54,107 bases of DNA from a virus, in the IMG/VR virus record IMGVR_UViG_3300009422_000007, positions 1 to 54,107 of that record; one strand, 5' to 3'. Positions 2,428 to 37,564 of the stretch are shown here, one piece after another. How positions within the stretch are numbered: position 1 is the first letter of the stretch; each line of letters starts with the position of its first letter. Both the position numbers and the translations under genes were made by a program. The notes under the pieces are model-generated. The model ran no database searches. It was given only the letters and a program-made list of their open reading frames with translations, and was not told the origin of the DNA.

Positions 2428-3537
2428 ATGGGACAAGCAGAGCAAAAAGTAAATGAGCCAAACACTCTAAAAATTAGTGAGTGTAAGCCAATTATCCGTA
2501 AAGCAGTTAATAAGAAACGTCCAGTGTTTATTTGGGGACCTCCCGGTTCTGGTAAATCGGATATGGTTGATCAAGTTGCTAACGAATTTGATAACAGTCT
2601 TGTTATTGATATGAGAATGGCACTTATGGATCCTACAGATATTAAAGGTGTTCCATATTACTCCTCAAACGACAACACTATGAAATGGGCACCTCCAGCA
2701 GAATTGCCTAATGCAGAAACTGCAAAAGAATATGAAATTATTTTTCTTTTCTTAGACGAGCTTAATAGTGCTCCTCCAGCAGTACAAGCCGCGGCTTATC
2801 AGTTAGTGTTGAATCGTAAAGTTGGTTCTTATCATTTGCCAGATAACGTTGTAATTATTGCCGCAGGTAATAGACTTGGTGATAAAGGTGTTACTTATAG
2901 AATGCCTAGTCCGTTAGCAAATAGATTCTTGCATATTGAGTTGAGAGTTGATTTTGATGATTGGGAATTGTGGGCAATTGAAAATGCTATCCATCCTCAA
3001 GTTGTTGGATACTTGAAGCAGTTTAAGGGAGACCTTTTTAACTTTGATCCTACAATGCACGATAGAGCTTTTGCTACTCCGCGTACCTGGGCTTTTGTAT
3101 CTGACATGTTAGATGATACAATGTCAGAAAGTGCTAATACTGATATGGTATCAGGACTTGTAAGTGAAGGTATTGCTATTAAGTTTATGTCTCACAGAAA
3201 GCATGCCGCAGATCTTCCGGATCCAGCAGAAGTGCTAAGTGGTAAAGTTACTAAGTTTGCTTCTAAGGAAGTGTCTGCTACATATGCATTAGTTGTTTCA
3301 TTATGCTATGAGCTTAGAACAAAGTATCAAGATGCTAAACGTTCTGGTAAGAGTGAGGACTTTAATAAAGCCGCTGATAATTGGTTAGGCTTTTGTATGG
3401 AAAACTTTGAACCTGAAATGGTTATTATGGGTGCCCATACTGTTCTTAAAAACTACAAGGTGATTTTTGATCGTAAGAAGATGACAAACTTCCCGGAGTT
3501 CTTTAAACGTTATGCGAGCTTGCTAACAGATGACTAA
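2428..3537 (+). CDS. MoxR-type AAA+ ATPase
   Basis: A 369-residue AAA+ ATPase of the MoxR/dynein-like branch. The Walker A is GPPGSGKS (37-44), the Walker B FLFLDE (106-111), the sensor-1 segment AAGNR (145-149) and a likely arginine finger SPLANRF (Arg166). MoxR ATPases act as chaperones that load or remodel partners carrying von Willebrand A domains. The expected partner, a VWA protein, is two genes downstream at 4634. The ATG follows GGAG at six-base spacing in the leader GGAGCCACACA-ATG, shared with the VWA gene. Residues from about 200 on form a helical lid. The ATPase fold is certain; the phage role is not known. Confidence 0.92.
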   Translation: MGQAEQKVNEPNTLKISECKPIIRKAVNKKRPVFIWGPPGSGKSDMVDQVANEFDNSLVIDMRMALMDPTDIKGVPYYSSNDNTMKWAPPAELPNAETAKEYEIIFLFLDELNSAPPAVQAAAYQLVLNRKVGSYHLPDNVVIIAAGNRLGDKGVTYRMPSPLANRFLHIELRVDFDDWELWAIENAIHPQVVGYLKQFKGDLFNFDPTMHDRAFATPRTWAFVSDMLDDTMSESANTDMVSGLVSEGIAIKFMSHRKHAADLPDPAEVLSGKVTKFASKEVSATYALVVSLCYELRTKYQDAKRSGKSEDFNKAADNWLGFCMENFEPEMVIMGAHTVLKNYKVIFDRKKMTNFPEFFKRYASLLTDD

Positions 3538-3865
3538 AAGGATTCGAGACTGGGCCATATCAGATAAGTTATATGGTCCAGATGCTCGTACAATATGGTT
3601 GGATCAACCCCCTGAATCTTCGGAAGTTAGCGAGTGGCTCCGCGAACAACGAAAGGGTTGGTCCAACCGACCTACTGAACACATACCTAGATGGAAGTTA
3701 AAAGTCTGGTGTAAAGATAATAATTTAAAACAATTAGATTATGATTATACTAAACTTACTATATGGTTTAGAAAAGAAGAAGATGCTATGTTATGGGATT
3801 TATCTAAACCAGATACAATAGAACCTGTTTATCATAACAGAGACGGACAAATTAGAGGACATTAA
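3530..3865 (+). CDS. Unknown protein, 111 aa
   Basis: A 111-residue protein whose start overlaps the end of the ATPase gene by eight bases, so translational coupling is likely. It is rich in Trp and charged residues and ends with a KLTIWFRKEEDAMLWDL segment that resembles the end of an alpha/beta domain. No family is recognised. It lies between the ATPase and the next sigma-70 promoter, so it is the last gene of the first transcription unit unless transcription reads through; no terminator is visible after it. Confidence 0.75.
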   Translation: MTKRIRDWAISDKLYGPDARTIWLDQPPESSEVSEWLREQRKGWSNRPTEHIPRWKLKVWCKDNNLKQLDYDYTKLTIWFRKEEDAMLWDLSKPDTIEPVYHNRDGQIRGH

Positions 3866-3873
3866 AAAAAAGG

Positions 3874-3902
3874 TTGACTATTGGTCCTTTCTGTTGTATA
3901 GT
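3874..3902 (+). promoter_or_regulatory. Host sigma-70-type promoter
   Basis: TTGACT (3874-3879), 17-base spacer, TATAGT (3897-3902). It drives the histidine phosphatase gene at 3943. Between the promoter and the ATG lies the leader GGAGAGCCACT-ATG. Confidence 0.82.
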
Positions 3903-3942: not shown

Positions 3943-4557
3943 ATGTATAAAAGAATAATAATATTACTAGTAACATTATTTGCAGTTATGATAACAATAA
4001 CTATCTTAACACCTGCAGACGCAAAGCCTAAATTTGAAAAAGAGTTCAATAAAGAACAAGCAATTAAGTCTTTGCAAAAAGGTGGAATGGTTGTATTTGT
4101 AAGACACACATATGCTCCTAAAGTAGAAGGTAACAATAGTAAAGGTTACGATGGTAATAAGGTTTGTGAAAAACAAAGGAATTTACTTTCAGAGGGTATT
4201 AAGCAAGCAAAAGAGTTTGGTAAGTTTCTTAAAACAAATAACATTGCAGTTGAAAAAGCACTAGCAAGTCCTATTTGTAGATGCTGGAAAACAGCCAAAT
4301 TAGCTGGATTAGAATTTCAAAAAGATGCATTGTTTCAAGCAAAGAACTGGAAGAAGAAAGATAAGATTATTAAGATCAGAGAAGTAATTAAAAACTGGAA
4401 TGGTAAAGGAAACTTATTTGTTTTTACACACTTTAAAGTAATGAAGTCTGTATTTCCAGGATTTAAAGCAGATAACGGACAGATGCTAATAATAGATAAA
4501 AACCTAAAGAAAGTTGGAGTTATTAATACTGCATACAATTCTAGCAATATTCTTTAA
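3943..4557 (+). CDS. Exported histidine-phosphatase-family protein
   Basis: A 204-residue protein of the histidine phosphatase (phosphoglycerate mutase/SixA-like) superfamily. Residues 4-22 form a hydrophobic signal peptide and PADA-K at 24-28 is a plausible signal-peptidase I site, so it should be exported to the periplasm. The catalytic RH pair is at 54-55 (VFVRHTYAP), a second Arg at 113 (ASPICRCWKTA) and the second His at 163 (VFTHF), in family order. The canonical Gly after RH is replaced by Thr. Substrate is unknown; phosphate release outside the cytoplasm would fit the phosphate permease gene at 5858. It has its own sigma-70 promoter. Confidence 0.8.
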   Translation: MYKRIIILLVTLFAVMITITILTPADAKPKFEKEFNKEQAIKSLQKGGMVVFVRHTYAPKVEGNNSKGYDGNKVCEKQRNLLSEGIKQAKEFGKFLKTNNIAVEKALASPICRCWKTAKLAGLEFQKDALFQAKNWKKKDKIIKIREVIKNWNGKGNLFVFTHFKVMKSVFPGFKADNGQMLIIDKNLKKVGVINTAYNSSNIL

Positions 4558-4575
4558 AATAATGCTAGAAATAGG

Positions 4576-4604
4576 TTGACTATAGTAAATATAGATGCTA
4601 TAGT
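4576..4604 (+). promoter_or_regulatory. Host sigma-70-type promoter
   Basis: TTGACT (4576-4581), 17-base spacer, TATAGT (4599-4604), identical in both hexamers to the promoter at 3874. It serves the VWA gene and, 15 bases beyond its stop, the permease gene. An 8-bp inverted repeat (4539-4546 with 4563-4570) spans the preceding stop codon just upstream but has no T run. Confidence 0.82.
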
Positions 4605-4633
4605 ATATATATAATAAGGAAATGGAGCCACAC

Positions 4634-5842
4634 ATGACCACAGATATTGCAAAACAAGCAAAAAATAAGTTAATTAAAGCAAGAATAACTATGCTACTAA
4701 AGTACCCATTTTGGGGACCTTTGTCAGCAAGGCTTGTTTTAGAAGAAGCACCTTGGTGCCAGACTATTGCTACAGACGGTCGTAAGTTTTATTATAATTC
4801 AGAATTTGTATTAAAATTAGATGATCAAGAATGTGTATTTGGTTTTGCACATGAAGTTGGACACATCATTTACGAACATATGACAAGACGTGGTAATAGA
4901 GAACCTGGACTATGGAATATGGCAGGTGATTATATTATTAATAATATGCTTGTTCGTGAGAGTGTTGGTCGTACAATTACTACTGTTCCTATCCTAGTTG
5001 ATCGTCAATACGAAAATCATACTGCTGATGAAGTATATGATAAACTAGTTGATAGAAATGCAGAAGTGCAAAATACATTAGATGAGCATTTAGACTTAGA
5101 TGGTGATGGTGACGAAAAAGAAGGTCCTGGTGCAGGAGGTCAACCTGGAGGCTCTAAGCCTAAATTTAAGAAGCTCTCTTCTGAAGAAAAGAAAGCTATG
5201 AGGAATGAGTGGAAAGAAGCAGTTATTGATGCAGTTAATAAAGCAGGTGCAGATAACGTTCCAGGTGAAGTAAAACGTTTAGTTAAACAAATTACCGAGC
5301 CTGTATTAGATCTTCGTGAACTTTTCCAAATACAATTTAGTAGTTCATTAAAGTCAGATTATACTTGGATGCGTCCTAATAGAAAAGGATGGCACACTGG
5401 TGCAGTACTTCCTGGTAATTTGCCAGGTGAGCAGTTAGACGTTGTTATTGCACTTGATGCTTCAGGTAGTATTTGGGATAGCACACTATCAGACTTCTTA
5501 GGTATTGTACAAGGATCTTTAGATCAATTTGATTCTTATAATGTTAAGATTCTTACTTTTGATACACAAGTATACAACGAAGATAATTTTACACAAGATG
5601 ATGGTCGTGATATGTCCGAGTATGCAATACAAGGTGGTGGCGGAACGGATTTTGATTGTATATGGGAGTGGCTTAAATACAACGATGTTACACCACATCA
5701 ACTAGTAGTTCTAACTGATGGTTACCCTTGGGGATCATGGGGAGATGAGAACTACTGTGATACATTATTTGTAGTACACGGAAACGAAAATATTAAGGCT
5801 CCATTTGGTATTACTGCAAACTATATGCCAGCAAGGGCATAA
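4634..5842 (+). CDS. Metallopeptidase-like plus VWA-domain protein, MoxR partner
   Basis: Numbered from the ATG at 4634 the protein has 402 residues. The N-terminal part carries HEVGH (73-77), a zincin-type HExxH motif, followed by a conserved Asp (AGDYIIN, about 99). A low-complexity acidic/Gly linker lies near 152-175. The C-terminal VWA domain has the MIDAS motif DASGS (275-279), GGGGTDFD and LTDG. This matches the DUF2201-type predicted metallopeptidase/VWA architecture known as a partner of MoxR ATPases, as at 2428. An upstream in-frame ATG (4622) exists, but GGAGCCACAC-ATG puts the Shine-Dalgarno six bases before 4634, as in the ATPase gene. Confidence 0.85.
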   Translation: MTTDIAKQAKNKLIKARITMLLKYPFWGPLSARLVLEEAPWCQTIATDGRKFYYNSEFVLKLDDQECVFGFAHEVGHIIYEHMTRRGNREPGLWNMAGDYIINNMLVRESVGRTITTVPILVDRQYENHTADEVYDKLVDRNAEVQNTLDEHLDLDGDGDEKEGPGAGGQPGGSKPKFKKLSSEEKKAMRNEWKEAVIDAVNKAGADNVPGEVKRLVKQITEPVLDLRELFQIQFSSSLKSDYTWMRPNRKGWHTGAVLPGNLPGEQLDVVIALDASGSIWDSTLSDFLGIVQGSLDQFDSYNVKILTFDTQVYNEDNFTQDDGRDMSEYAIQGGGGTDFDCIWEWLKYNDVTPHQLVVLTDGYPWGSWGDENYCDTLFVVHGNENIKAPFGITANYMPARA

Positions 5843-5857
5843 AGGTAGGAGTTTAAA

Positions 5858-6823
5858 TTGGATCAATTAACGTTATGGATGGCATTGGGCTTTCTATTTG
5901 CAGGCTATAGTGTTATAGCAAACGATAGTGTACAAACACTAGGTACTTGGATTGCAAGTAACAATCAAAGATTCCATTGGACAACTATGTGGTGCTCTGC
6001 TAGTGCAGTTTTACTTTGGGCACTTTGGTATGGTTGGACTGTAAATGGTGGTGATATTAGTTATGGTAGATTAGATAAAATACCATTCCAGGAAGTTAAA
6101 TGGTATCATGCAATGGCTCCACTTGTACTGTTATTACTAACAAGAATAGGCGTACCAGTTAGTACGTCTTTTTTAGTTTTAAGTGCATTTGCAAGTACAT
6201 TTGTATTAGAGAAGATGCTAGTAAAAAGCATAATGGGATATGCAGTTGCCGCAGTATTTGCATATGTATTATGGATACTAATTGCAAAATGGTTAGATGA
6301 ACGTAATAATCCCGTAACAGAATCACGTAAACCTTATTGGAGAGTAGCACAATGGATAACTGCTGGTTTCTTATGGTGGACTTGGCTAGCACATGATATT
6401 GCAAACATAGCAGTATTTCTACCACGCCAAGTTCCATGGGATATGATGGTACTAGTTAGCCTAGTGTTTATTATAGGTCTTGGGTTTATGTTCCGAGAAG
6501 GTGGCGGTAAGATTCAACAGATTGTATTAGAGAAACAACATACTAGATACGTTAGAAGTGCAACAATTATTAATGCCGCTTACTTTGTATGTTTACTTTT
6601 CTTTAAAGAACTAAACAATATTCCAATGTCAACGACATGGGTATTTGTTGGAATACTATGTGGACGTGAACTTGCAATAGGAACACTAAGCAACGGATCA
6701 TACAGATTAAAAAATGTGTTTCCTATAGTAGGAAGAGATTTTATGAAGATGATGGTAGGTTTAGGAGCATCATTGGGTATTGTATTACTAATACATTATG
6801 TATTGGTTCCAAACGGATTCTAA
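5858..6823 (+). CDS. PiT-family-like inorganic phosphate permease
   Basis: A 321-residue polytopic membrane protein with about eight or nine hydrophobic spans. An N-terminal IANDSVQTLGTW segment (about 21-32) resembles the PiT/PHO4 signature with Asn-Asp and GT. GVPVSTS (about 97-103) and a second IPMSTTWVFVG (near 256-266) match the duplicated P-V/I-S-T-T motifs of inorganic phosphate transporters. It starts with TTG, preceded by TAGGAG (5846-5851) at six bases, 15 bases after the VWA stop, so it is in the same operon. It is shorter than most bacterial PiT proteins. Phosphate import is the best guess; another cation-coupled anion carrier is possible. Confidence 0.68.
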   Translation: MDQLTLWMALGFLFAGYSVIANDSVQTLGTWIASNNQRFHWTTMWCSASAVLLWALWYGWTVNGGDISYGRLDKIPFQEVKWYHAMAPLVLLLLTRIGVPVSTSFLVLSAFASTFVLEKMLVKSIMGYAVAAVFAYVLWILIAKWLDERNNPVTESRKPYWRVAQWITAGFLWWTWLAHDIANIAVFLPRQVPWDMMVLVSLVFIIGLGFMFREGGGKIQQIVLEKQHTRYVRSATIINAAYFVCLLFFKELNNIPMSTTWVFVGILCGRELAIGTLSNGSYRLKNVFPIVGRDFMKMMVGLGASLGIVLLIHYVLVPNGF

Positions 6824-8240: not shown

Positions 8241-8873
8241 ATGGATTTTGTTTTTATCAATCCAAGTGAAGTTGCAACAAGATTTTTTCCTTTGTTTGAA
8301 AGAACACTTACATTTGGTGTAAAACTAACAGAAGATTTTGTTCCTCAATACGATACAAGTATTGTAACTGATATCCCATTACTTGATGAAGGCTTCAATG
8401 GAGGCTTTGATTCTATTGCATGGGATAGAGATGGTGTACAATTACAACAGGCTAAAAAATATCCTAAATTTAAGTTAGAAGATTATCAAGACAAAGAAGT
8501 ACCTAATGGTGTTATTTTAATTGATATGATTTGTCATCATAGAATATATGCAGTAACTAGCCAATGGATTAGAGAAGATAACAAATGGTCATTACAACGT
8601 AATGCAGATGTTAATGATGACAAAGATAATTACAAGAAACGTGCTATCGAAGAAATAGAAGCAAGACATTTGCATGGAACAGTACAAACATATCTATACC
8701 CAGATGGTACTGTTAAGTTCAAAATGCATCCAATTGATATGGCTTATATGGTTAGTAAAAATATTGTTAGTAGGCATTGGATTTCAATATATCCTACATT
8801 AGTTGCTCAAAGACATAATGAAGCAGTAAGTACAGCAATATTTAATAATTGGATTGAAAAAACTGCTATCTAG
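8241..8873 (+). CDS. Unknown protein, 210 aa
   Basis: A 210-residue soluble protein without a recognised domain. The N-terminal half contains acidic segments (DEGFNGGFDSIAWDRDG). A His pair ICHHRIY is near residue 93, and the C-terminal part is helical with SRHWISIYP. A CGGAGAA ribosome site lies in the end of the preceding gene. Its last eight bases overlap, tail to tail, the end of the fatty-acid-hydroxylase-like gene on the opposite strand, with no terminator visible. It marks the left edge of the accessory island. Confidence 0.75.
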   Translation: MDFVFINPSEVATRFFPLFERTLTFGVKLTEDFVPQYDTSIVTDIPLLDEGFNGGFDSIAWDRDGVQLQQAKKYPKFKLEDYQDKEVPNGVILIDMICHHRIYAVTSQWIREDNKWSLQRNADVNDDKDNYKKRAIEEIEARHLHGTVQTYLYPDGTVKFKMHPIDMAYMVSKNIVSRHWISIYPTLVAQRHNEAVSTAIFNNWIEKTAI

Positions 8874-9327
8874 TATACGTTTTGTAACTACCAAATAGTA
8901 AATCCCAAATAGGAATAAACAGTCCATAGTTTTTAAATGGCGATACATGATGTACTAAATGCCATTTGCCTGATGTAAGTACAGGATACCAAGTAAACTT
9001 AGGATTGTGTTCTATTACTTCTTGCAAGAATGCCGCCCAAAAATAGTATGCAATACTAACCCACCATGCACCAGTTATATAACTAAAGATTAAAGTAGGA
9101 ATAACTTCTGTGATCCAGAGATCTAAAGTTGATAGCCATGTGTCATTAAACAGAAAACAATTATTCCAATGCCAGGATGTTCCGCCTGTAATGTTAATGT
9201 ACTTGTGGTGGTCGTTATGTGCTTTAAAAGACACAGGAAACCATCTGCGACCGTGTACATGTACAGTTCTGTGTACAATGTAAAGCAGTAAAGTCCATAG
9301 TAAAAATGTTAATATATAATGCATCAT
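8866..9327 (-). CDS. Fatty-acid-hydroxylase/sterol-desaturase-superfamily protein
   Basis: A 153-residue membrane protein with the histidine boxes of the membrane di-iron fatty acid hydroxylase superfamily. Numbered from the TTG at 9330 these are HRTVH (20-24), HNDHH (38-42) and HLVHH (124-128), separated by hydrophobic spans (about 5-19, 75-105). This family hydroxylates or desaturates lipid substrates, including carotenoids and sterols, at the membrane. It is shorter than usual members (200-300 aa) but keeps all three boxes. TTG 9330, ATG 9327 and ATG 9324 are consecutive. ATG 9327 lies six bases after the minus-strand late box at 9339-9334, so it is chosen; the transcript would be leaderless. 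Confidence 0.82.
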   Translation of the reverse strand: MMHYILTFLLWTLLLYIVHRTVHVHGRRWFPVSFKAHNDHHKYINITGGTSWHWNNCFLFNDTWLSTLDLWITEVIPTLIFSYITGAWWVSIAYYFWAAFLQEVIEHNPKFTWYPVLTSGKWHLVHHVSPFKNYGLFIPIWDLLFGSYKTYTR

Positions 9328-9333
9328 CAATAC

Positions 9334-9378: not shown

Positions 9379-9939
9379 ATGGAAGAGATATACTACCAAA
9401 AAGTAGACATACCAAATATTGCACAATTACAGAAAGATCTTGACGAATCTCTTACCAAGCATAATATTAATGAGATGTGTAGAATTAAAGATAGTAAGTA
9501 TGACTTCTACGAGCAAATATATAGATTCAAACTATTGAATAAACATCCTGTTTGGGACGGCTTAATGTTAAAAGACGGGATTTTCTTTTTTCTTGAAAAG
9601 AATACAATACAAGGTGTACATGTTGATGGCTTTCGTGCTGATAGAAAAGATGCATCTGATATGGCACTTAACATACCAATTCGTAATTGCGGTATTGGTA
9701 GTATGGATTGGTACGGTGGTCCAAAATATACATTAGAAGAAAAAACTGTGGCGGAAAGCCGTAGAACAAAATATCTTAAACTTAATTGGGAAAGTAAACC
9801 TGAGGTTGTTGCATCTGTAACTATTGACACTCCTCATTTAGTTAGAATTGACAGACCGCATCAAGCAAAAAACTTATGCCCAGACAAACCTAGAGTAATG
9901 CTTTCCATTCGATTTACGCCAGATTTAAAATGGCTATAG
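9379..9939 (+). CDS. 2OG-Fe(II) oxygenase, tandem copy 1
   Basis: A 186-residue protein with the double-stranded beta-helix signature of 2-oxoglutarate/Fe(II) oxygenases: H81-x-D83 (GVHVDGF), distal His161 (RPHQAKN) and Arg172/Arg178 (PRVMLSIRF) for 2-oxoglutarate. Such enzymes hydroxylate peptides, nucleobases, sugars or small molecules; the substrate is unknown. It is closely similar along its whole length to the next gene (both share GSMDWYG, ALNIPIRN and MLSIRF), so the two arose by tandem duplication. It starts five bases after a late box with no ribosome site. Paralogues with the same motifs lie at 10602, 13321 and 18277. Confidence 0.82.
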   Translation: MEEIYYQKVDIPNIAQLQKDLDESLTKHNINEMCRIKDSKYDFYEQIYRFKLLNKHPVWDGLMLKDGIFFFLEKNTIQGVHVDGFRADRKDASDMALNIPIRNCGIGSMDWYGGPKYTLEEKTVAESRRTKYLKLNWESKPEVVASVTIDTPHLVRIDRPHQAKNLCPDKPRVMLSIRFTPDLKWL

Positions 9940-9993: not shown

Positions 9994-10575
9994 ATGGAAA
10001 AACTTTTTCAAAAAATTGACGATATTCCTAATATTGCAGACTTAGTGTTTAGAATTAATAAGTCGTTGTATATGCATAAAATTAATAAAACATTAACAAT
10101 TCAATCACCCGAATATAACTTTTATGAAATGATAGATGAATTTATAAAGGCAAATCCGCATCCAGTTTGGAATGGTTTAAGTTTGAAGTCTGGGTTAATT
10201 TTTGTGTTAGGTAAAGATAAGGCACAAGGCCTACATATTGATGGTTTTAGAGCAGACAGATCAGGTGCATCAAATTATGCATTAAATATTCCAATTCGTA
10301 ATACTGGTATTGGTAGTATGGATTGGTACGGAGAATCTCCGTACAGATTAGAGGTTCAAAAAATAGTAGATGCAACTGTAATAGGAAGAAAAACAAACTC
10401 TAACAAATATTTAAAACTTGAATGGGACGGAGAGCCAAAACTAATTGCGTCTGTAACTATTAAGGATCCTCACTTAGTTAGGATTGATGTTCCACATCAA
10501 GCAATTAACTTATGCAAGGAAAATCCTAGAGTAATGCTTTCTATTAGATTTAAACCGGACTTAAAATGGCTATAG
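9994..10575 (+). CDS. 2OG-Fe(II) oxygenase, tandem copy 2
   Basis: A 193-residue paralogue of the preceding gene with the same catalytic set: H81-x-D83 (GLHIDGF), His168 (VPHQAIN), Arg179/Arg185. It has a seven-residue insertion near 127-134 (VIGRKTNSN), in the region between GSMDWYG and the distal His where substrate specificity is often set. That suggests the copies act on different substrates. The 25 bases at its end (10561-10585) are identical to those of copy 1. Predicted leaderless late gene. Confidence 0.82.
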   Translation: MEKLFQKIDDIPNIADLVFRINKSLYMHKINKTLTIQSPEYNFYEMIDEFIKANPHPVWNGLSLKSGLIFVLGKDKAQGLHIDGFRADRSGASNYALNIPIRNTGIGSMDWYGESPYRLEVQKIVDATVIGRKTNSNKYLKLEWDGEPKLIASVTIKDPHLVRIDVPHQAINLCKENPRVMLSIRFKPDLKWL

Positions 10576-14127: not shown

Positions 14128-14980
14128 TCAGACCAAATTTTTCTACAATCTCTTGCATCTCTCGTTTACTAATACCAAAGTTATTGCCTATCTCATCAAT
14201 CCTTTTAATATCAATTTCTCTAAACATAAGAGATTTAACAAATACAAGTTCTTGTTTACTGAGCTTTACAGATTGTTCTTGATAATCTTCAAAAGCCTCA
14301 CATGCAACAGGAAACTTTTCTTTTACCATATCATACATTGCTCTAGCATATTCTTGTATTTCCCATTGTGCATGGCTATCCATTCGTAGTCTAGCATAAT
14401 GTAAAAAGTTTTTAAGATTAGATTTCCAGTAACATTCTGTATATCCGCCTACTGGAAGAACTTGCCTCGCAGTTTCTCTAGCCAAGTTAAGGTTATCGGA
14501 ATGTTCTGTGTAGAGGGAGTAATCACGATCCCATGACTCGTTAATATCGTCACTGATTCGTCTTTTTGTTTCTTCGTCAAGCTCTCCTTCTCTACCTTGC
14601 TTATTGGTTGCACTTTGTGGCTTGATGTTCTCTGAGTTGGGTACATATACTTCGTCTGTAAGTACCGAGTAGCGAGCCGAATATTCATTTAATGATGCCG
14701 TCCTATGTCTGACTAATTGCCTCATTACAAAAATAGGCAGTTTAATGTGAAACTTTACTTCGCACATCTCGAATGGCGTAGTGTGTTCATGTCGCATTAG
14801 ATAACGTATTAATGCTCTATCACTACTAGCCTTTTTAGTACCATCTCCGTAACTTACCCGGGCGGCTTGTACAATAGAGTTATCTGTGCCCATATAGTCA
14901 ACTAGGCCAATAAATCCTTTATCTAATACTTGTTTGTAATTCGGGTCTTTATTAAAATCTATCTCCGAACATAATGTCAT
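14111..14980 (-). CDS. thyX: Flavin-dependent thymidylate synthase ThyX
   Basis: It makes dTMP from dUMP using FAD, NADPH and methylene-tetrahydrofolate, supplying phage DNA synthesis. The ThyX motif RHRTASLNEYSARY is at residues 91-104, and residues 55-75 (RALIRYLMRHEHTTPFE) match the family. The frame is open upstream to 15088, but the ATG at 14980 has an AAAGGAAA ribosome site and overlaps the desaturase stop as ATGA; the 289-residue product starting MTLCSEIDF is therefore chosen. It is longer than many bacterial ThyX, with an extra C-terminal segment (KRIDEIGNNFGISKREM) that looks like a small helical, HTH-like tail. Confidence 0.93.
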   Translation of the reverse strand: MTLCSEIDFNKDPNYKQVLDKGFIGLVDYMGTDNSIVQAARVSYGDGTKKASSDRALIRYLMRHEHTTPFEMCEVKFHIKLPIFVMRQLVRHRTASLNEYSARYSVLTDEVYVPNSENIKPQSATNKQGREGELDEETKRRISDDINESWDRDYSLYTEHSDNLNLARETARQVLPVGGYTECYWKSNLKNFLHYARLRMDSHAQWEIQEYARAMYDMVKEKFPVACEAFEDYQEQSVKLSKQELVFVKSLMFREIDIKRIDEIGNNFGISKREMQEIVEKFGLNDIQN

Positions 14981-15888
14981 ACTGTTTCCTTTACTTCTGT
15001 TTGTCTTTCTATTATAGCACGTTTTCTGTTTCCCCACAACCTTTTTATTTCCGAAAGTGGAGCAAACGGCAACATTATAAGTAAACATGCATCAAACTCG
15101 TGCCATCTTCCACTTACACTTGCACCAAAATCAAAACTACTTGCTTCTCTGTGATGATTGTTATGCCAACCACTTCCAAAATGAAAGTATCCAATTGGCC
15201 AACAATTGGTACTGCAATCATTATTATTAAAGTTTTGATACCCAGATGCAGGAACGTGTCCAAATGTATTAACTAGCCCGTCCATATGTAAACTAGATAA
15301 TGCACCCATAATCCAAAACCAAAATGTAAACTGCCATCCAAATACTAGTGTACTAGCAAGTAATGTTATGAATATAATTTTGTTATAATGATTATGTAAA
15401 AATACAATTTTCTTATCTCTTAATAAATCAACAGCATAACGGAAACTTACAGTATCTTGTTTAATGCCAAACTGCCAACCCATGTAACTATGCCACCAGC
15501 CATTTTCTACTGGAGTGTGTATGTCTTTGCCTGGCTGATCACTAACTTTATGATGATGTCCTCTATGTAAAGATGCCCACCATAACGGGCTTCCTTCTCC
15601 TACCATAACTGCCAGCCAGTATAAGATAGGCTTCATCCATTCTCGTGGCTTCCACGACTTGTGACTTAGTAGCCTATGTAACGTTAAGTTATTTCCAATT
15701 CCATCTAGTGTAATCCATCCACATATCATTGCAACTAAATACCACCACTCCCAACCTGTATAAATTAAGTAAGGTATTAATGTAACAGCCGCTATATGAT
15801 ACGGAAACCATATTGCTACTATAAAAGGTATTTGCTTTGTTTTTTTATATAGGTCTACCTGTCCTTGAATCCAAGTACTAATCGCCAT
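14977..15888 (-). CDS. Stearoyl-type (delta-9-like) fatty acid desaturase
   Basis: A 303-residue integral membrane desaturase. Three histidine boxes bind the di-iron centre: HRLLSH (71-76), HRGHH (108-112) and HNNHH (242-246), in the order and spacing of the acyl-CoA/acyl-lipid delta-9 family. Hydrophobic spans lie at about 22-45, 47-65, 85-98, 170-182 and 185-200. It would introduce a cis double bond into host or imported acyl chains; desaturases are known from cyanophage genomes. The ATG has an AGGAG ribosome site, and its stop overlaps the thyX start (ATGA). Confidence 0.9.
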   Translation of the reverse strand: MAISTWIQGQVDLYKKTKQIPFIVAIWFPYHIAAVTLIPYLIYTGWEWWYLVAMICGWITLDGIGNNLTLHRLLSHKSWKPREWMKPILYWLAVMVGEGSPLWWASLHRGHHHKVSDQPGKDIHTPVENGWWHSYMGWQFGIKQDTVSFRYAVDLLRDKKIVFLHNHYNKIIFITLLASTLVFGWQFTFWFWIMGALSSLHMDGLVNTFGHVPASGYQNFNNNDCSTNCWPIGYFHFGSGWHNNHHREASSFDFGASVSGRWHEFDACLLIMLPFAPLSEIKRLWGNRKRAIIERQTEVKETV

Positions 15889-28636: not shown

Positions 28637-31600
28637 TCAACTCGGAACAAATCCAACTTCTCCATCTGGATTAGCATCAGTTAATGTTACAGTAGATTTA
28701 TCTGGATTTAAGAAATTAATTGTATTTCCATCTTCGTCAGTAAGTATTGCAAAATTAGTTTCATCAACATCTACACTAAGTTGGAACTCAGATGTTTCTA
28801 TTGACATTGATAACGTTTCTTCTATACCAACGTTAATTGTTTGTGTGGTTGATATTTTATTATTAAAGTTTGCAATCTTAGTATGGAAAGGTTTTACTTC
28901 CTTAACATATGTTTCAACTTGTTCTGAAAGCCTATCATAAAATAATGAAATAGTTCTTAAATCAGATCCTGATGTTTTAGATATATCTAAGTATGTTGTT
29001 TTAATTGCCCAGTTTGAACTTGGAATCTGGTTTAATGACTCCTTAACCATATCAAAAAAGAATACGTTAAAGAATCCAACATCACTGCCTACTAGTAAAT
29101 CTTGTCTTAATGCAGTCATAATACTTTCTAAAACTTCACTACCATCTTCGTCCCATGGATACTTGTCCCAACGAGCCGTGTCCCATGCATCACCTAATGT
29201 TCCGTCCCATACACTATCTAAAAATTGTATTGTTCCATTACGTTGATATACTAGTTCAATGTCTAATCCATCTTTATTAAATGAACGATCTAGTTCGCCG
29301 TTAGCATCTAGTAATCCAAATACAGTAATATCATCTGTTATTGTTGTTATTTCTGACAAGTCACTTACAAACATTTGTTCACTACCTTCAATATATCCTG
29401 ATGCAAAGTAATCAACATACTCCCAATAAGGAGTTAAGTCTTTTATATAAGGTCCAAATAAAGGCTGGTATGTTAACAAGTGTGCATCAAACGTTGCCTT
29501 GTTTACAGAATTTACTTGTAACAGATACTTGTTTGCTGAGTAAACTAAGTTACGTCTTGCTTCTCTTACATTCTTATACCAAGTTTGTGGTAAAGGAGTA
29601 TACTGATTTCCGTATCTACGAAGTGGATGTAATTTAGTATCTGGAACTCGTCTTCTTGCAGGAATTACTGCTTGATAACCCCCAGTAAGTCCGCCATCTC
29701 TCTGTAATGCAGTAGCTCCACTAACTATCATGTTCCAATCACTTGTTACATCTGCAACGTAATCAGTAGTAGAAGTAAATCCACCTGAACGTGTTACTAA
29801 CATTGGTCTATGTAGTTTTTTCTTTTGTTCTAGTTTAGGATCTGTTGATGTTGCCAATACAGTTCCGTTAACATCAGCTAAATCTCCGTTACCATCTATT
29901 GCATACTTAGGTCTAAATACTGCTTCGACTATTTCTCTTGTATCGTTTAAAAAACCAATAATAGGAATATCTCTTTCATTATAATTAGTAGATATGCTAA
30001 CTTCAGATGAATAATCAAAGTTTATAATATAGTCACCTTCGTTATAAACTGTATTAGGTGCCCATATTTTTAATGCATTTGTTCTTCTATAATTGTCTCT
30101 GCCTGCTATGCTTGTTTTAAGCCTACGGAATAGGTATTCTGGAATAACACTTCCTGACTTACCTTCACTTACTAGTAAACTATTAACGTGTTGTTGCAAT
30201 CCATCATCTCTTTCAACAATTCTTAGTATTACACTTTTTCTTGTTGATAAGAAACTGTTAAGATTTGAAACTACTAAGGCACTAGTTGCAATTGGACTTG
30301 CCCAAGTTATACCTGCAACATCTGGACTGTTTAGTGAAGATTGTATTGCAAGTGCTGAATAAGGTCTTGTTACATTGCTTGGAGTATCACTTGGATTCTT
30401 AGTCCAAAAATAATACTTTGTTACTAACGCACCATTACGAGTGTATTCTTCGTTTTGCGTATATCTAATAACAGGATCACCACTTGACATATCTACTCTA
30501 GCATTAGGGTGTGTATCAACTGACGGCTCTTCATCTGACGAAGACCATTCGTATATTTCTACTTCACTATCTGCAAATTGTTCTCCCCAATAGTTTGCTC
30601 TGTATTCAATGTTGTCTCTTTGCTCGTACTCTGCATAACGTAACTTGCTGGTATCCCACCATAGTTTGCCAACTTGTATTGTTTCCCAATATGTTGTTGC
30701 ATCTAGTTCTGGATTACCAAACTCATCTATATTATAGACTGCTGGATCTGCACCTTGTCTATAATCTAAGTATTGTGTTACTTCGTCAATAGTAAATCCT
30801 TTATAAGGATCAAACAGTTCAATATTAGTAAGTTTGTTTCCAGTAGTTCCGTCTAACAATGTAATACTATCTATTGCTTTTGAGTTTACCATGTCACCTG
30901 TTAGTGTTGTTGCTTCTTGATTTATTTCCCAAGCAGTTCCGTTAAACTCATATACTGTATATTCACCTTGAGCAGTACTATCTGGCTCTAAGTAAAACTT
31001 AGTTCCAACAGCAATGTTTGTAAAGTCAGTTGGTAAGTCTGCTGTAGTTTTACCTTTAGTGTTCATCATTATTATTGCTACTAAGTTTTCAATTTTTGTT
31101 GAAACTCTAGTAGGAATTAAAATATTATAAGAATCAATTACTTTTGTAACTATGTGAAAAGTTCTAATTGGATCTTCGTTAGTTCCAAGTATTAATAGCA
31201 TATCATCTACAGCCAAGCCATGTGCATTGGCAAATGTAACTTTGCTTTCTGCAAACTGAGGATCTGCATTAGGACATATTTCACTTATTAGTGTCGGTAC
31301 AGTACCTTTTAAAATATTCCAGCTAACTTCAGTTTCACCTGTTTCTGTTGATGTAAAATCTTTAAAGTCAAAATCACTTAACCATACACTAGGTGGATTT
31401 GTTATAGCATCTTCTGTAACTACAGTCCATTGTGCTGAGTTAAATGCTGTAGTTGGTCCGCCTGTAATTGGTACTAAGGCCTGATATAATATAGCATTAT
31501 TCCATACTCTATCTTGTTCCTTATATAAATTAAACTTACTAAAGGATCTTAATTCATTTAAACGTTCAAAGTTATCATCATTAAAAACACTAATGTCTGA

Positions 31601-34600
31601 ACCAAACAGTTCATTAACACTTCTCTTTTGTACGTTTGTTTCAATTAGGTTTCCTACACCAGCACTAGGTAGCCAATTATTCTTTGCTACATAATCTGCT
31701 GTTAAAGTTGAACGTGGTATTACTGGAAAGTTAACATCATTACTTCTTGTTACCCATCTGCTATCATTCTTTAGTATATCAATTATATTATCGCTTTTAA
31801 GGTCAACATCATTTTTGCCTTCTTTAAAACGTATAACTTGTCTAGTACTTGTTACGTCCTCTGCCCTAATTTCTATTTCCCAAACTTTTCTATTTCCTAG
31901 TTTACCAAATTCTCCATCTGTAAACATCCATTGTTCGTTAATTTCTAAGTCTTGTAATACTCCTGGAATATCGATTGCAGAGTTCCTAAACAATGCTTCA
32001 ATGGCTAAGTTTGTTCCTGAAGCAGATATTAATCCTTGCTTAAATGCAAATTCAACAGACTCATCTGCAATTATTTCTTCAATAATTGATTTCTTATCTG
32101 GAATAATATCTCCTTTACTAACATCACTTAGGAATGTATTAAATTGACTTTTCTCTGATTCTCTTGACTTAATAACATCATCTGTTAAACTTTCAAATCC
32201 TGGAAGTAGTCCTGTGTTTGTTACTACAACTCCTTGTGCAAATGGCTTACCGTCCCAACCTCTAGTTCTTCTAGCAATTAATTTCATGCTTGGAAGTCTA
32301 AACTGTAGTTGGCTATTGTTAATTACATCTCCAAATCTAGTAGAGTTATTAAAGAAAAATACATGATCATAACTTCTTATTGAAAAGTCAATAAACGTAA
32401 CTTGCTTTTGAGAAGTAATCTCAACAAGGTCTTGTTTATCGTTGTAGTTTCTTGATATTAACAAATCACTTGGTTGTGCTAACTTTCCGTCTGAGAATAC
32501 AATCTTTCCTCGTCTAGTTAAATCGTTGTCTAGTTTATCAAGATGCCCTTGCTGATGTTCATATAAGAATCCTGAAGAGTCAATAGGACCACCTAACCAG
32601 AAAGTATCTGTTCCCCAGTTCTCCCCAATCCATGTCATTGCATCTAATGCCACTTGCTCCCAGTTACCAACAGTTCCTCTTGAGTTTAAACTATCAAATA
32701 CTAATCCGTTTCTTACCTGTAATTCTTGTAATCCAATAAAGAATTCATATAGTTCTTGTTTAGTTTCAAATTTATGTCCATAAGAAACTTTTGTTACATC
32801 TTGTACATGCTGTTTAAAGAAAGTAAATGTATCTGTATCTGTTGTTACTTTACGTTGATACGTTCCACTTGCACTTCCTGTAGGTCCTTCTTTTATAGGT
32901 AATACTATATTAAAGTATCTCTCTTCTGGATCAAAGCCATATACTCTAAATCCAGCATCTTCTCTTTCTAGTCTTACTGCACTATATCGTAATTCGTTAG
33001 TTGCAACACCTTCGTCTAATGTTAAGTTAAAATCTTCTTCAGGTACAAATGTTCCATCAGCAAACTTTGCATGTGGCATTTTAAATTTAGCTTCTTGATT
33101 ACTATATCCGCCCATACCAAACATTAATACAACTCCGAGGCTTTCAATTTCGTTGATTACTTCTGAACCAGGAAAGTTTAACTCTTTATTGTTTTCAAAC
33201 AATAATGCTCCAATACCAACAGTAGGCCTTAACTGTACAAAAGGTACATCTGGAAAAATACTATATGTTCCTAGTGCTTCTGTTGAATTATTTTTGTTAC
33301 TAACAATATAAGGATTAATTCCTTTTTCTATTGCTTCGTTTACAGTTTCCTTGTTGCCTATCTTATCTAAAATTTGATGGTATGCTCCTGCAGAACTTCT
33401 AGCCCATAAATCTTCCCATACACCGTAACTGCCAATCTCCCAAGGAGCGCCTGCGGCATCTTCTGTTACAGTTATTCCTAACCATTCTTTTGGGCTTATT
33501 AATCTTGCAGAGTTAGTAACTGGAAATCCATTTGGGTAATCTCTTTTAACTGACATGTCATATACTAAAGGAGTACCAGGCTCACTTATAAGTCCTGTTG
33601 TTAACGCTTGCTCTAATGCAATACGCTGAGTTGCATCACCCCATTGGTAATGTGAATCCCACCAAGTTGGTTTATTAGTAAATTTTAATATTTCCCAAGG
33701 TCGACTGTCTGGCTGATATGTTCCAAATAATCTAACATACATTCCTCTCCAGCTCTCTCCGCTATAATTCCATGTCCAAGGATCCGTAAAATCAAAATCT
33801 TGTGTACGATCTCTAAAGTCAATATCGTTAGATTGAAACCATCTAACTTCTGCTAACGAACGTAATGGAGTTACAGTAGGACTTGCATATAACCCTGCGT
33901 TTTCTCTTGTTGCTTCATCTGAAAGAGGTGTACAACTAACATAAATTCTTCTTTCTAATTCTAGTATTAAGTAATCTCTAGCATCAGGAGCTGAATAAAT
34001 GTTATCCTGGTGTGCCATTACCTTACTTCCGTCATGTCTTATAATTAAGAAACGATCAAAGTCTCCCCAACGTTCTCTAATAAGTTCTGGCTTAGTTAGT
34101 GCTTTTAATCCTAGTTTAGTCGGACTAGCAGGCATTCCACTTAACAATGGAGTTGATAAACCTCTATAGTAAATACTTACAATACTTGCAACATCAACTG
34201 GTGTGTCAAATACAACGTTAGGACTTGTAACAGTATAACCAGTTATTTGTAATATGTTATCAATATAAACATAAACATGATCTGGATCATATTCGTCTAA
34301 TGCTAAAGTACTACTTCCAACGTTAATTGCGAATGTTGTTTCACTTGCCCCTGCTATAGTATAATCTACTTTAAGCATGTTAGTAGTAGAAAACACCATT
34401 CCACTTTCTGAATCTGGCGAGTTCCTATTAACCTCAATGTTTAGTTGGTCTAGCAATAAGTCTAATATTTCTCTAGAATTTGAAGTTGTTACATCATATG
34501 TGTTGTTATAAGTTTCTACTAACTTTATAAATCTTCTATGCCATCTCCAAGAATTCATGCTCCTATTAATAACAGCCTCACCTAAACTTGGATTAAGTCT

Positions 34601-37564
34601 TTGCGTAGCCCACATGCCTCTTATTGCTGAAATATCAGCAGTATAAGATCCGTTTAGTGATGGAATTTGAAAACCATTGTCCCAATTACTACCATCCCTT
34701 GTGTTTGCTTTTATATTCTTTGTTAAAGCAGAGTCTAGCATTGCTGGTGTAAATCCGTTTACAAACGAAATATTTTGTGTTGGATTATATGCAAGTCCTG
34801 GAATTGCAGTACAATGTTCAAGTTCTAAACCAGCCTTGTTTAAAAATTCACCTTGGTGTTTAATTTCAATAGTTGAAGAGTTACTTACATCTGTTAATGA
34901 AATATTAAACTCTGTTACAAAATTTGCTACATCTCTAATAGTAGTATGATTCCAGTTATATGGTATACCATCAACTTTTACTTCAGGAGACCTTGGATCG
35001 TTTTTAACATCAATTACCATTAATGTAGTACCATAGTAATTTGGACCAAATGTACACTTATAACAGCCTTCGCTTAATGCTAGATCAAGTTTTATAAATC
35101 CATCAACTGTTGTCGCTGTTGCTACTGTAACATTATTGTGGTCTTTAATAATTATGTCTGTTAATGTTGTAGTATTAATTACTAATGGTTCGTCTGTTGC
35201 ACCTACTAACATATTATGTACAACTGTTTGATAGTTGTCATTATGTTGTACAAGTACACCAGATTTATGTCTTACTACTGTCCAATCATAGACTGGCCAA
35301 GATGTTTCTGTAAACGTTAATCCTGTTGTTGGCATCTGCGTTGCCTGTATTCTAACACTTGCCCAACTTTTTAATCTATACCAAGCTCTTAGTAAACCTG
35401 TGCTTAATCCACTGTTTACATCTGTAGGTAAGTTTGTAATTGCGTCATTCATTCTTCTAAAGTTTATTGGTCCTGGAACATCAGCATCTCTGTCACTTGA
35501 ATCTAAAAACTTTGTAGTATCTTGCAAAGTATAATTAAACAATATATCAGCAGTTTTGTTAACAGCATTATTTGTTAACTCTGTTGAAAAGTTTGCTTTA
35601 TCAAACTTAATTCTAAATCCACTCTCTTTATCTACTGATCCAGTGCCGTCTGTAAATTCAATAATAGTTGAATTCTGTCTAGTTGGAACTTCATTATATG
35701 TTTCTTTCCATAAGTCAAGTGCTACTTGATCTCTATCATACAATCTCCATAATGGAACATGGGTTTTACTTAACCTTGTCTGTGCTGGAATGACTGCTCC
35801 ATTTTTAACTTTGTATTCTAGATATGCTTTCAAACCTGCTTTAATGTACATAGACTGGCCGTCTCTTAGTTTATCAATTATAAAATGAGTACAAATACCT
35901 TGTGCATCTGCTCGGAAGATAAGAATATTATTCATATACGTTCCAGACCTTAACCATAAAGTTTGGATAGCTCGTATTCTGTTTCCTCCTCTAAATCTTG
36001 TCGCTATTAAATTAAGATCACTAATTGCAGTTCTTGCTAATTGGTTTGTTGAAAATGTGTCTGTTAAAAAGTTTTCAATAGCAGTCTCGTCACCGTTAAG
36101 TAATGCTTGATAAATTGCTTCGTTTTGTGTTTGGTCAGCAGTACCAAGAAAGAAGTCTACCATAATTCTTAAAATAGGAGTTCCAATATAATCATTAGGC
36201 TGTTGAGTTGCCCCGGCTTCGTCTTCGACTACACAAGTAATACGTCCTTTAAATGTAGTTCCATGATTAAATGCTTCTAGTGTATTCTCAAATTCAATAA
36301 TAGGTCTTAGAGCAACGTCTTTTCTATCAGTAATATCACTTTGTCTAATATTTAAAAAGTTACAAATTTCATTAATTGTATCTTTATGTGTCCATACATT
36401 TGCTCTAGAAAACGCACTTCTATTTTCAGCACCAATTGCTTGTGTAACATAATGTTTTTCGTTTATTCCTAGTATATCACCTTCCCAAGATATTTCGTCC
36501 CATGATAAATTTGTCTGGTCCCATAACGAAGTTAGCTCTGTACTATAAACTGTTCTTCTATCTTGTTGCGTAGCTGGTAAGAATCTAATACCTGCTGGAG
36601 TTCCAACACCAGCAACTTGGAAAATTCGTTGTGTATTAACTTCTGCAGACCTAAGTGTTGTTTCTGAATTTACATAGTAATCGTTTAGTACAAGTGTTAT
36701 TGACGTACCGATTGCAGGAACAAATCCTGTTCTCCATATAATAGATTCTGACACAAAGTCAAAATTAGTACCCACTACTTGTAAAACTCCGTCTACATAG
36801 ACTTCAACACTTGCTGATTTATTGTAACCAAAGTCGCCGTCTACTTCATTATTAAAGTCTACTTGTCCTGTATCATTTGCAATATGTGTTTCTGTAATTG
36901 TTCCATTGACGCTTTCTCTACCAGTAACATCTTTCTTAAACGAAACTCTCATGCCGTTTTTAAATTGCAGTACTTTGCCGTTTGCTTGTATTGGAGTTGT
37001 ATAAGTTTGTTTTCCAATAATATCAGAATTAATATTAATAGGAGCACTTGTATCTGAAACTATAGAACCTGTAAGATGTAGAATTGGTGTTTGAGGACGT
37101 ATCCACATATAGTTACTCCAGTTAATAAACTTATCTGGATTAATTGGAAGATCGTTAACACTTACTGGAACAGCAGGTTCATCATCATGCTTATCTACAA
37201 AGCCTTGTGATAATGCAATGTTATCTGATGTTAATGTATAAGTCTTGTTATCGTTTCTTCTGACTACAATACCTTCTTCTAATTGTCTTTTCTTATTATC
37301 TGCTGTTGGTAAAAAGTCGTTAACATCTTGGATAGCACTAGCAATTCCTGATGTAGGTCTTCCAATATTATAGTTTACATTTTCTATAACATTAGGTTGG
37401 AACATATCTTCGATTGTTGCTGTAAATATTTTCTTAGTAATATCAGTTTTAAATATACTAGGTAATAAATTTACTGCAAGAGGTTCTACTTTTCCTACTT
37501 CTTTTTGCTTTGGATATGTATTGTCTCCAATAACTTTGCCATTAAACTTTTTAGGGTTTGCCAT
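28637..37564 (-). CDS. Giant baseplate/virion structural protein, 2975 aa
   Basis: An uninterrupted 8.9 kb reading frame, about one sixth of the window. The N-terminus (LLPSIFKTDITKKIFTAT, then a segment on a W-S-N-Y-M-W-I pattern near 150) resembles large structural proteins of marine T4-like phages encoded just after gp6. Its position equals that of T4 gene 7 (1032 aa), the baseplate wedge initiator. It is largely soluble and beta-rich with repeated W-x-x-G and R-x-N-G segments; no enzymatic motif is evident. It starts five bases after the gp6 stop. The structural assignment is secure by context; equivalence with gp7 is inferred. Confidence 0.85.
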   Translation of the reverse strand: MANPKKFNGKVIGDNTYPKQKEVGKVEPLAVNLLPSIFKTDITKKIFTATIEDMFQPNVIENVNYNIGRPTSGIASAIQDVNDFLPTADNKKRQLEEGIVVRRNDNKTYTLTSDNIALSQGFVDKHDDEPAVPVSVNDLPINPDKFINWSNYMWIRPQTPILHLTGSIVSDTSAPININSDIIGKQTYTTPIQANGKVLQFKNGMRVSFKKDVTGRESVNGTITETHIANDTGQVDFNNEVDGDFGYNKSASVEVYVDGVLQVVGTNFDFVSESIIWRTGFVPAIGTSITLVLNDYYVNSETTLRSAEVNTQRIFQVAGVGTPAGIRFLPATQQDRRTVYSTELTSLWDQTNLSWDEISWEGDILGINEKHYVTQAIGAENRSAFSRANVWTHKDTINEICNFLNIRQSDITDRKDVALRPIIEFENTLEAFNHGTTFKGRITCVVEDEAGATQQPNDYIGTPILRIMVDFFLGTADQTQNEAIYQALLNGDETAIENFLTDTFSTNQLARTAISDLNLIATRFRGGNRIRAIQTLWLRSGTYMNNILIFRADAQGICTHFIIDKLRDGQSMYIKAGLKAYLEYKVKNGAVIPAQTRLSKTHVPLWRLYDRDQVALDLWKETYNEVPTRQNSTIIEFTDGTGSVDKESGFRIKFDKANFSTELTNNAVNKTADILFNYTLQDTTKFLDSSDRDADVPGPINFRRMNDAITNLPTDVNSGLSTGLLRAWYRLKSWASVRIQATQMPTTGLTFTETSWPVYDWTVVRHKSGVLVQHNDNYQTVVHNMLVGATDEPLVINTTTLTDIIIKDHNNVTVATATTVDGFIKLDLALSEGCYKCTFGPNYYGTTLMVIDVKNDPRSPEVKVDGIPYNWNHTTIRDVANFVTEFNISLTDVSNSSTIEIKHQGEFLNKAGLELEHCTAIPGLAYNPTQNISFVNGFTPAMLDSALTKNIKANTRDGSNWDNGFQIPSLNGSYTADISAIRGMWATQRLNPSLGEAVINRSMNSWRWHRRFIKLVETYNNTYDVTTSNSREILDLLLDQLNIEVNRNSPDSESGMVFSTTNMLKVDYTIAGASETTFAINVGSSTLALDEYDPDHVYVYIDNILQITGYTVTSPNVVFDTPVDVASIVSIYYRGLSTPLLSGMPASPTKLGLKALTKPELIRERWGDFDRFLIIRHDGSKVMAHQDNIYSAPDARDYLILELERRIYVSCTPLSDEATRENAGLYASPTVTPLRSLAEVRWFQSNDIDFRDRTQDFDFTDPWTWNYSGESWRGMYVRLFGTYQPDSRPWEILKFTNKPTWWDSHYQWGDATQRIALEQALTTGLISEPGTPLVYDMSVKRDYPNGFPVTNSARLISPKEWLGITVTEDAAGAPWEIGSYGVWEDLWARSSAGAYHQILDKIGNKETVNEAIEKGINPYIVSNKNNSTEALGTYSIFPDVPFVQLRPTVGIGALLFENNKELNFPGSEVINEIESLGVVLMFGMGGYSNQEAKFKMPHAKFADGTFVPEEDFNLTLDEGVATNELRYSAVRLEREDAGFRVYGFDPEERYFNIVLPIKEGPTGSASGTYQRKVTTDTDTFTFFKQHVQDVTKVSYGHKFETKQELYEFFIGLQELQVRNGLVFDSLNSRGTVGNWEQVALDAMTWIGENWGTDTFWLGGPIDSSGFLYEHQQGHLDKLDNDLTRRGKIVFSDGKLAQPSDLLISRNYNDKQDLVEITSQKQVTFIDFSIRSYDHVFFFNNSTRFGDVINNSQLQFRLPSMKLIARRTRGWDGKPFAQGVVVTNTGLLPGFESLTDDVIKSRESEKSQFNTFLSDVSKGDIIPDKKSIIEEIIADESVEFAFKQGLISASGTNLAIEALFRNSAIDIPGVLQDLEINEQWMFTDGEFGKLGNRKVWEIEIRAEDVTSTRQVIRFKEGKNDVDLKSDNIIDILKNDSRWVTRSNDVNFPVIPRSTLTADYVAKNNWLPSAGVGNLIETNVQKRSVNELFGSDISVFNDDNFERLNELRSFSKFNLYKEQDRVWNNAILYQALVPITGGPTTAFNSAQWTVVTEDAITNPPSVWLSDFDFKDFTSTETGETEVSWNILKGTVPTLISEICPNADPQFAESKVTFANAHGLAVDDMLLILGTNEDPIRTFHIVTKVIDSYNILIPTRVSTKIENLVAIIMMNTKGKTTADLPTDFTNIAVGTKFYLEPDSTAQGEYTVYEFNGTAWEINQEATTLTGDMVNSKAIDSITLLDGTTGNKLTNIELFDPYKGFTIDEVTQYLDYRQGADPAVYNIDEFGNPELDATTYWETIQVGKLWWDTSKLRYAEYEQRDNIEYRANYWGEQFADSEVEIYEWSSSDEEPSVDTHPNARVDMSSGDPVIRYTQNEEYTRNGALVTKYYFWTKNPSDTPSNVTRPYSALAIQSSLNSPDVAGITWASPIATSALVVSNLNSFLSTRKSVILRIVERDDGLQQHVNSLLVSEGKSGSVIPEYLFRRLKTSIAGRDNYRRTNALKIWAPNTVYNEGDYIINFDYSSEVSISTNYNERDIPIIGFLNDTREIVEAVFRPKYAIDGNGDLADVNGTVLATSTDPKLEQKKKLHRPMLVTRSGGFTSTTDYVADVTSDWNMIVSGATALQRDGGLTGGYQAVIPARRRVPDTKLHPLRRYGNQYTPLPQTWYKNVREARRNLVYSANKYLLQVNSVNKATFDAHLLTYQPLFGPYIKDLTPYWEYVDYFASGYIEGSEQMFVSDLSEITTITDDITVFGLLDANGELDRSFNKDGLDIELVYQRNGTIQFLDSVWDGTLGDAWDTARWDKYPWDEDGSEVLESIMTALRQDLLVGSDVGFFNVFFFDMVKESLNQIPSSNWAIKTTYLDISKTSGSDLRTISLFYDRLSEQVETYVKEVKPFHTKIANFNNKISTTQTINVGIEETLSMSIETSEFQLSVDVDETNFAILTDEDGNTINFLNPDKSTVTLTDANPDGEVGFVPS

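Follow-up and report, generated by a model that had tools for sequence, protein, structure and literature searches.

Does this large marine phage carry a matched pair of genes for scavenging phosphate, or two separate genes that lie close together? The question concerns a locus in a 54-kb IMG/VR virus contig (record IMGVR_UViG_3300009422_000007), whose full 54,107 nucleotides are called the window here. The window probably represents part of a jumbo phage genome, since two of its genes, for an SbcCD-like nuclease and a late sigma factor, match giant myoviruses such as PA5oct, PBECO4 and Atu_ph07 at ~66-73% over short stretches. A preliminary description of the locus placed an exported histidine phosphatase and a PiT-like permease two genes apart, both under sigma-70 promoters, and proposed that they form a scavenging module. 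The genes and promoters are arranged as follows:

2428-3537, plus strand: MoxR-type AAA ATPase (AAA_5/AAA_3; phrog_1297, 1.3e-97)
3530-3865: small ORF between the MoxR-type ATPase and the phosphatase
3874-3902, plus strand: promoter TTGACT-17-TATAGT before the phosphatase gene, extended motif
3943-4557, plus strand: predicted exported histidine phosphatase, 204 aa (His_Phos_1 above cut-off, fold, signal-peptide-like N-terminus)
4576-4604, plus strand: promoter TTGACT-17-TATAGT before the VWA gene, extended motif, likely also serving the permease gene by presumed co-transcription
4622-5842, plus strand: metallopeptidase-like/VWA protein (Pfam DUF2201_N 1.5e-38, DUF2201 VWA 1.2e-17)
5858-6823, plus strand: PiT-family (PHO4/SLC20-like) permease, 321 aa, TTG start (family profile, fold, motifs)

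Only one gene, encoding the metallopeptidase-like/VWA protein, thus lies between the phosphatase and the permease, and the permease starts 15 bp past its stop. The usual partner of a VWA protein is a MoxR-type AAA ATPase. In PHROGs the family of this protein (phrog_1314) is named 'HNH endonuclease', a label that looks wrong beside the DUF2201 and VWA domains seen by Pfam.

The PiT identity of the permease was revealed solely by its family profile and its fold. Single-sequence searches did not disclose it: a Pfam scan returned only PHO4 at E 0.03 and 13.7 bits, and neither tblastn against 50,697 phage records nor phmmer against the PDB gave a match. There was no meaningful match in PHROGs or NCBIfam, or in a fold search of BFVD. 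A profile built from 36 viral homologues, the window copy included (A1), matched one protein in the PDB, 6l85 (E 9e-8), the solved structure of TmPiT, a sodium-dependent phosphate transporter. The AlphaFold model of the permease (pLDDT 80, pTM 0.81) had 6l85_B as its sole significant Foldseek match in the PDB (E 1.6e-4, prob 1.00, TMq 0.61). Structure prediction, suggested earlier as a check, therefore does not place the protein outside the PiT family, and because the rmsd of the alignment is large (10.5 A), the match is read as likeness in overall fold and not in detail. Four motifs that are invariant in A1 lie in the two halves of the protein:

5921-5947, plus strand: N-half PiT signature AND-S-x-QTLGT, residues 22-30
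6155-6166, plus strand: N-half PVST motif, residues 100-103
6392-6406, plus strand: C-half signature HDxAN, residues 179-183
6623-6637, plus strand: C-half PMSTT motif, residues 256-260

The two halves align with each other (E 4e-4), giving the inverted repeat with two signature and two P-S-T motifs that typifies the PiT superfamily. The Asp at both essential positions is retained, D23 aligning with D22 of TmPiT and D180 with D258. The phage permease therefore resembles PiT/PHO4/SLC20 transporters such as TmPiT and E. coli PitA in fold, internal repeat, AND and P-S-T motifs, and paired Asp. It differs from them in its length of 321 aa, compared with 402, and in lacking the canonical GANDVANA signature. 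This is replaced by IANDSVQT and AHDIANIA, with Asn changed to Gln at position 26 and to His at position 179, which marks a divergent branch and not a canonical Pit. Comparison of its profile with a canonical SAR11 PiT (L188) was weak (E 0.11), and the DUF47/PhoU-like partner found beside L188 was not seen beside the phage permease. Unlike canonical PiT/PHO4 transporters, it also falls under the gathering cut-off of Pfam PF01384 (PHO4), which is 33.7 bits. PHO4 was detected in 27 of the 36 A1 members, under the cut-off among the matches listed, and the cut-off was exceeded by none of 16 viral permease records as against 10 of 14 control genomes. We conclude from sequence and predicted structure that the protein is a divergent member of the PiT superfamily (PHO4/SLC20), too distant for the curated PHO4 model to capture. 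The PiT-like assignment is upheld by profile, fold and motifs, and by the phosphate-related genes that surround its relatives in cells.

The short length of the permease, once a ground for doubt, is normal for its subfamily, which measures ~310-330 aa across phages and SAR11, with SAR11 copies at ~321 aa; truncation is ruled out for the same reason. The window copy starts with TTG where most homologues start with ATG. Local PHO4 matches cross the two halves because of the internal repeat, and a swap of the halves is ruled out by the collinear alignment with TmPiT.

The substrate of the permease is suggested by the gene neighbourhoods of its cellular relatives. A MIP aquaporin gene (aqpS) lies directly upstream in 36 of 80 cellular loci, and an LMW-type arsenate reductase gene two genes upstream in 23 of the 80; the SAR11 loci in these counts are not independent, and the contexts agree in two phyla. 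In Flavobacteriales a response regulator gene lies directly upstream in 8 loci and a histidine kinase gene in 7; PhoB and PhoR are their best or nearly best matches in the L086 copies, and an ACR3 arsenite exporter gene lies downstream in 5 loci. In one locus each from Flavobacteriales (L087), an alphaproteobacterium (L090) and a virus (L064), the permease is followed by a gene for an OprP-type phosphate-selective porin. Among alphaproteobacteria Ppk1 is encoded after the permease in L084, and in Bacteroidota a Na/Pi cotransporter gene adjoins the relative in L193 and L195. These phosphate and arsenic genes argue for import of phosphate, and the best reading of the sequence evidence is that phosphate is the substrate, with arsenate entering alongside.

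It is improbable that the permease carries another oxyanion, for instance sulfate, as does CysP, a sulfate-moving member of the PiT family, or that it serves arsenic handling and not phosphate supply. The altered signature motif would suit either function, a SulP sulfate permease gene adjoins one relative (L194), and the arsC, aqpS and ACR3 neighbours could be taken as signs of arsenic handling. However, ArsC, AqpS and ACR3 also provide the protection from arsenate that an importer of phosphate requires, and the PhoBR, OprP, Ppk1 and Na/Pi cotransporter neighbours speak for phosphate itself. Moreover, the phage permease loci fetched contain no arsC, aqpS or acr3. They differ in this from many SAR11 loci, in which the permease relative stands directly downstream of arsC-aqpS. 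This arrangement was observed in L142 and others (e.g. L113, L102), and arsC-aqpS is the known arsenate resistance pair of SAR11 (PMC6426599). The main text of that paper contains neither 'PiT' nor 'permease'.

The permease is widespread in viruses, with 76 homologous loci in IMG/VR and, when the alignment or profile served as query, at least 593 confirmed viral stretches that encode it. Named phages gave no meaningful match to the window copy. A T4-type Gp23 capsid gene is present in 7 of 20 permease-bearing contigs tested. The viral neighbourhoods read were varied, including UvsX/Hsp20, heme oxygenase/porin-like, VWA, DUF6552, OprP and others. Among cellular genomes, relatives were recovered from 37 of 147 in the SAR11 family (almost all of them 54-60% identical), from 8 of 289 belonging to the same class as SAR11, and from 28 of 198 in the Bacteroidota class that includes G002, where identity is mostly 38-45%.

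A quick IQ-TREE phylogeny, with SH-aLRT support only and with long branches that leave its details unsure, groups 47 viral copies with two MAG contigs (L081, L082), apart from most cellular copies. Both MAG contigs have phage-type neighbour genes. Viral copies occupy several other places in the tree, L062 falling among SAR11 copies and L067/L069 among those of other alphaproteobacteria, a pattern suggesting that the gene was transferred more than once. Several phage permease loci (L023-L028, L030, L034, L074) encode, downstream, an exported porin-like protein together with a heme oxygenase. The same set is found in L082, which was binned as Rhodobacteraceae and is probably a phage contig. Near the permease, SAR11 genomes often encode a small membrane protein, DUF6552, which is also encoded there in some phages (L040-L050).

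The second gene of the proposed pair encodes a predicted exported histidine phosphatase, as first described. The 204-aa protein matches Pfam His_Phos_1 above the cut-off (E 5.7e-6) and has a histidine-phosphatase fold like that of SixA, PGAM5 and RosC. Its N-terminus is signal-peptide-like, as judged by inspection only (MYKRIIILLVTLFAVMITITILTPADA followed by KPK, with an A-x-A type site). R54, H55, R113 and H163 are invariant in its alignment, as are the Cys at 75, 112 and 114, so that the RH motif, second Arg, C-terminal His and fold of branch 1 of the histidine phosphatase superfamily are all present. Thr after RH had been counted against the assignment but is no defect; this position is variable, reading RHA or RHS in SAR11 homologues and RHT in other phage copies. 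Of 147 Pelagibacteraceae genomes, 98 encode a relative, in nearly every case at 31-44% identity, and the phage protein is ~32-44% identical to its SAR11 relatives. Codon comparisons indicate purifying selection on both genes (dN/dS ~0.12-0.20 for the phosphatase, ~0.07-0.13 for the permease), and these low values and the full-length ORFs rule out pseudogenes.

The phosphatase shares its fold, RH...R...H residues and signal-peptide-like start with the exported histidine phosphatases PmrG/Ais, SixA-like and PRK06193, though it stays under every equivalog cut-off. Its NCBIfam matches to PmrG (4.8e-6) and SixA (4.9e-6) are equally weak and far under cut-off, so both release of phosphate and editing of the envelope are possible functions. 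In the latter case the enzyme would act on LPS or other surface phosphate of the host, like PmrG/Ais, without any part in nutrition, and the permease would act alone. This is a tentative but serious alternative. The PmrG and SixA matches, weak as they are, the predicted export and the four contigs that carry the phosphatase but no permease are in keeping with it. The two matches do not tell the substrates apart, however, and the SAR11 phosphatase locus read (L161) has no envelope genes. In one of the four contigs (L210, 307 kb), a 999-aa subtilisin-like/autotransporter-like protein (L210:1719-4718) is encoded directly before the phosphatase, with queuosine-type genes nearby.

Are the two genes transcribed as a unit? 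The extended promoter motif occurs twice in the window, against 0.06 expected, and nowhere else than before the phosphatase and VWA genes. The claim that both genes lie under sigma-70 promoters stands for the phosphatase (3874-3902). No sigma-70-type promoter directly precedes the permease, whose gene begins 15 bp after the VWA stop, and the claim extends to it only under co-transcription with VWA from the promoter at 4576-4604. It is probably read on the VWA transcript. A T4 late promoter, TATAAATA, was rejected as a candidate for either gene, since the only one in the window is at 138. Pho-box regulation had been proposed as a check on the module. No E. coli-type Pho box was found in the phosphatase-permease region, although a SAR11-type box could differ, and the whole window holds 6 such matches as against 5.5 by chance; Pho-box control of both genes is thus rejected for the E. 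coli-type box.

A true two-part module, in which a periplasmic phosphatase would liberate phosphate from its organic forms for uptake by a co-selected permease, is unlikely. It would account for the window, L002, L008, L009 and L010, where the two genes always occur with VWA between them, and would accord with purifying selection on both and with the likely export of the phosphatase. In phages, however, the pair is limited to one lineage, the window's own, and joint inheritance was not found, as related phages carry each gene without the other. In L003 and L004, where the permease is 99% identical, the small ORF is followed directly by VWA and the phosphatase is absent, as it is from most permease loci. 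Conversely, four whole contigs of 76-307 kb (L209-L212) encode the phosphatase with no permease found, and in SAR11 HTCC9565 the relatives occupy separate loci ~130 kb apart on the same contig. These loci, like the missing E. coli-type Pho box, leave the proposed module unsupported as a unit. The safer statement is that two useful genes lie side by side in one lineage and do not form a fixed module. In phages the phosphatase is a separate gene and rarer than the permease.

The likely explanation for the locus is that the phage carries a permease of a compact PiT branch that would import phosphate for infection, with the phosphatase as a separate and dispensable neighbour. Marine phages share this branch with marine bacteria, having apparently acquired it more than once. 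During infection, the permease would be made from the phage VWA-permease transcript and inserted into the host inner membrane. There it may import inorganic phosphate by cation-coupled symport, arsenate entering by the same route, and the phosphate could feed phage DNA synthesis in phosphate-poor water. The phosphatase would be a separately acquired periplasmic enzyme that may supply extra phosphate close to the permease, in the window's lineage only. Phosphate import is favoured by a fold and motifs of PiT type, by purifying selection, by the broad distribution among phages and by the cellular phosphate and arsenic neighbourhoods; the altered GANDVANA, the PHO4 scores under cut-off, the weak L188 comparison and the SulP neighbour in L194 count against it. 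PiT systems are also often low-affinity, and therefore a poor fit to scavenging at nanomolar phosphate.

Marine phages are known to carry pstS and phoA, and phosphate supply limits phage production across much of the surface ocean. The proposed role of the permease, phosphate supply during infection, is that of the pstS/phoA-type auxiliary genes, from which it differs as a one-gene secondary permease, not an ABC binding protein, for which no Pho box was found. A virus-borne PiT is already known as a kind: PHO4 transporters were described in algal viruses and in one 1139-nt phage-like marine clone (JF837193) in 2012 (PMC3429862), and pit in soil phages (PMC10987575). All are virus-borne PiT-type phosphate transporters like the one described here. 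Those earlier genes were found by the PHO4 model or standard annotation, whereas the present branch escapes the curated cut-off and has far more members. Judged from the open-licence literature, the apparent novelty lies in how large and how invisible the subfamily is, and in its arsenic/phosphate context in SAR11.

It may be, at slightly less than an even chance in our judgement, that a PiT subfamily missed by standard annotation is among the commonest nutrient transporters of marine phages and is also a phosphate/arsenate entry route of SAR11 and marine flavobacteria. If so, infection would routinely alter how some of the ocean's most abundant cells take up phosphate. The at least 593 viral stretches, missed by Pfam/NCBIfam thresholds and absent from PHROGs, would shift estimates of the number of marine phages with genes for phosphate uptake. 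The position of the SAR11 permease directly after arsC-aqpS suggests which transporter admits arsenate, and offers a directly testable connection between hunger for phosphate and detoxification of arsenic.

Elsewhere in the window, a fatty acid hydroxylase-like gene (8866-9330, minus strand; PF04116, 2.6e-11) lies within a plus-strand block, and a desaturase-like ORF is found at 14977-15888 on the minus strand. Two neighbouring ORFs of 186 and 193 aa (9379-9939 and 9994-10575) are alike and look like a tandem duplication; the first has no Pfam match. Amid the tail genes lies an ORF of 2975 aa (28637-37564, minus strand).
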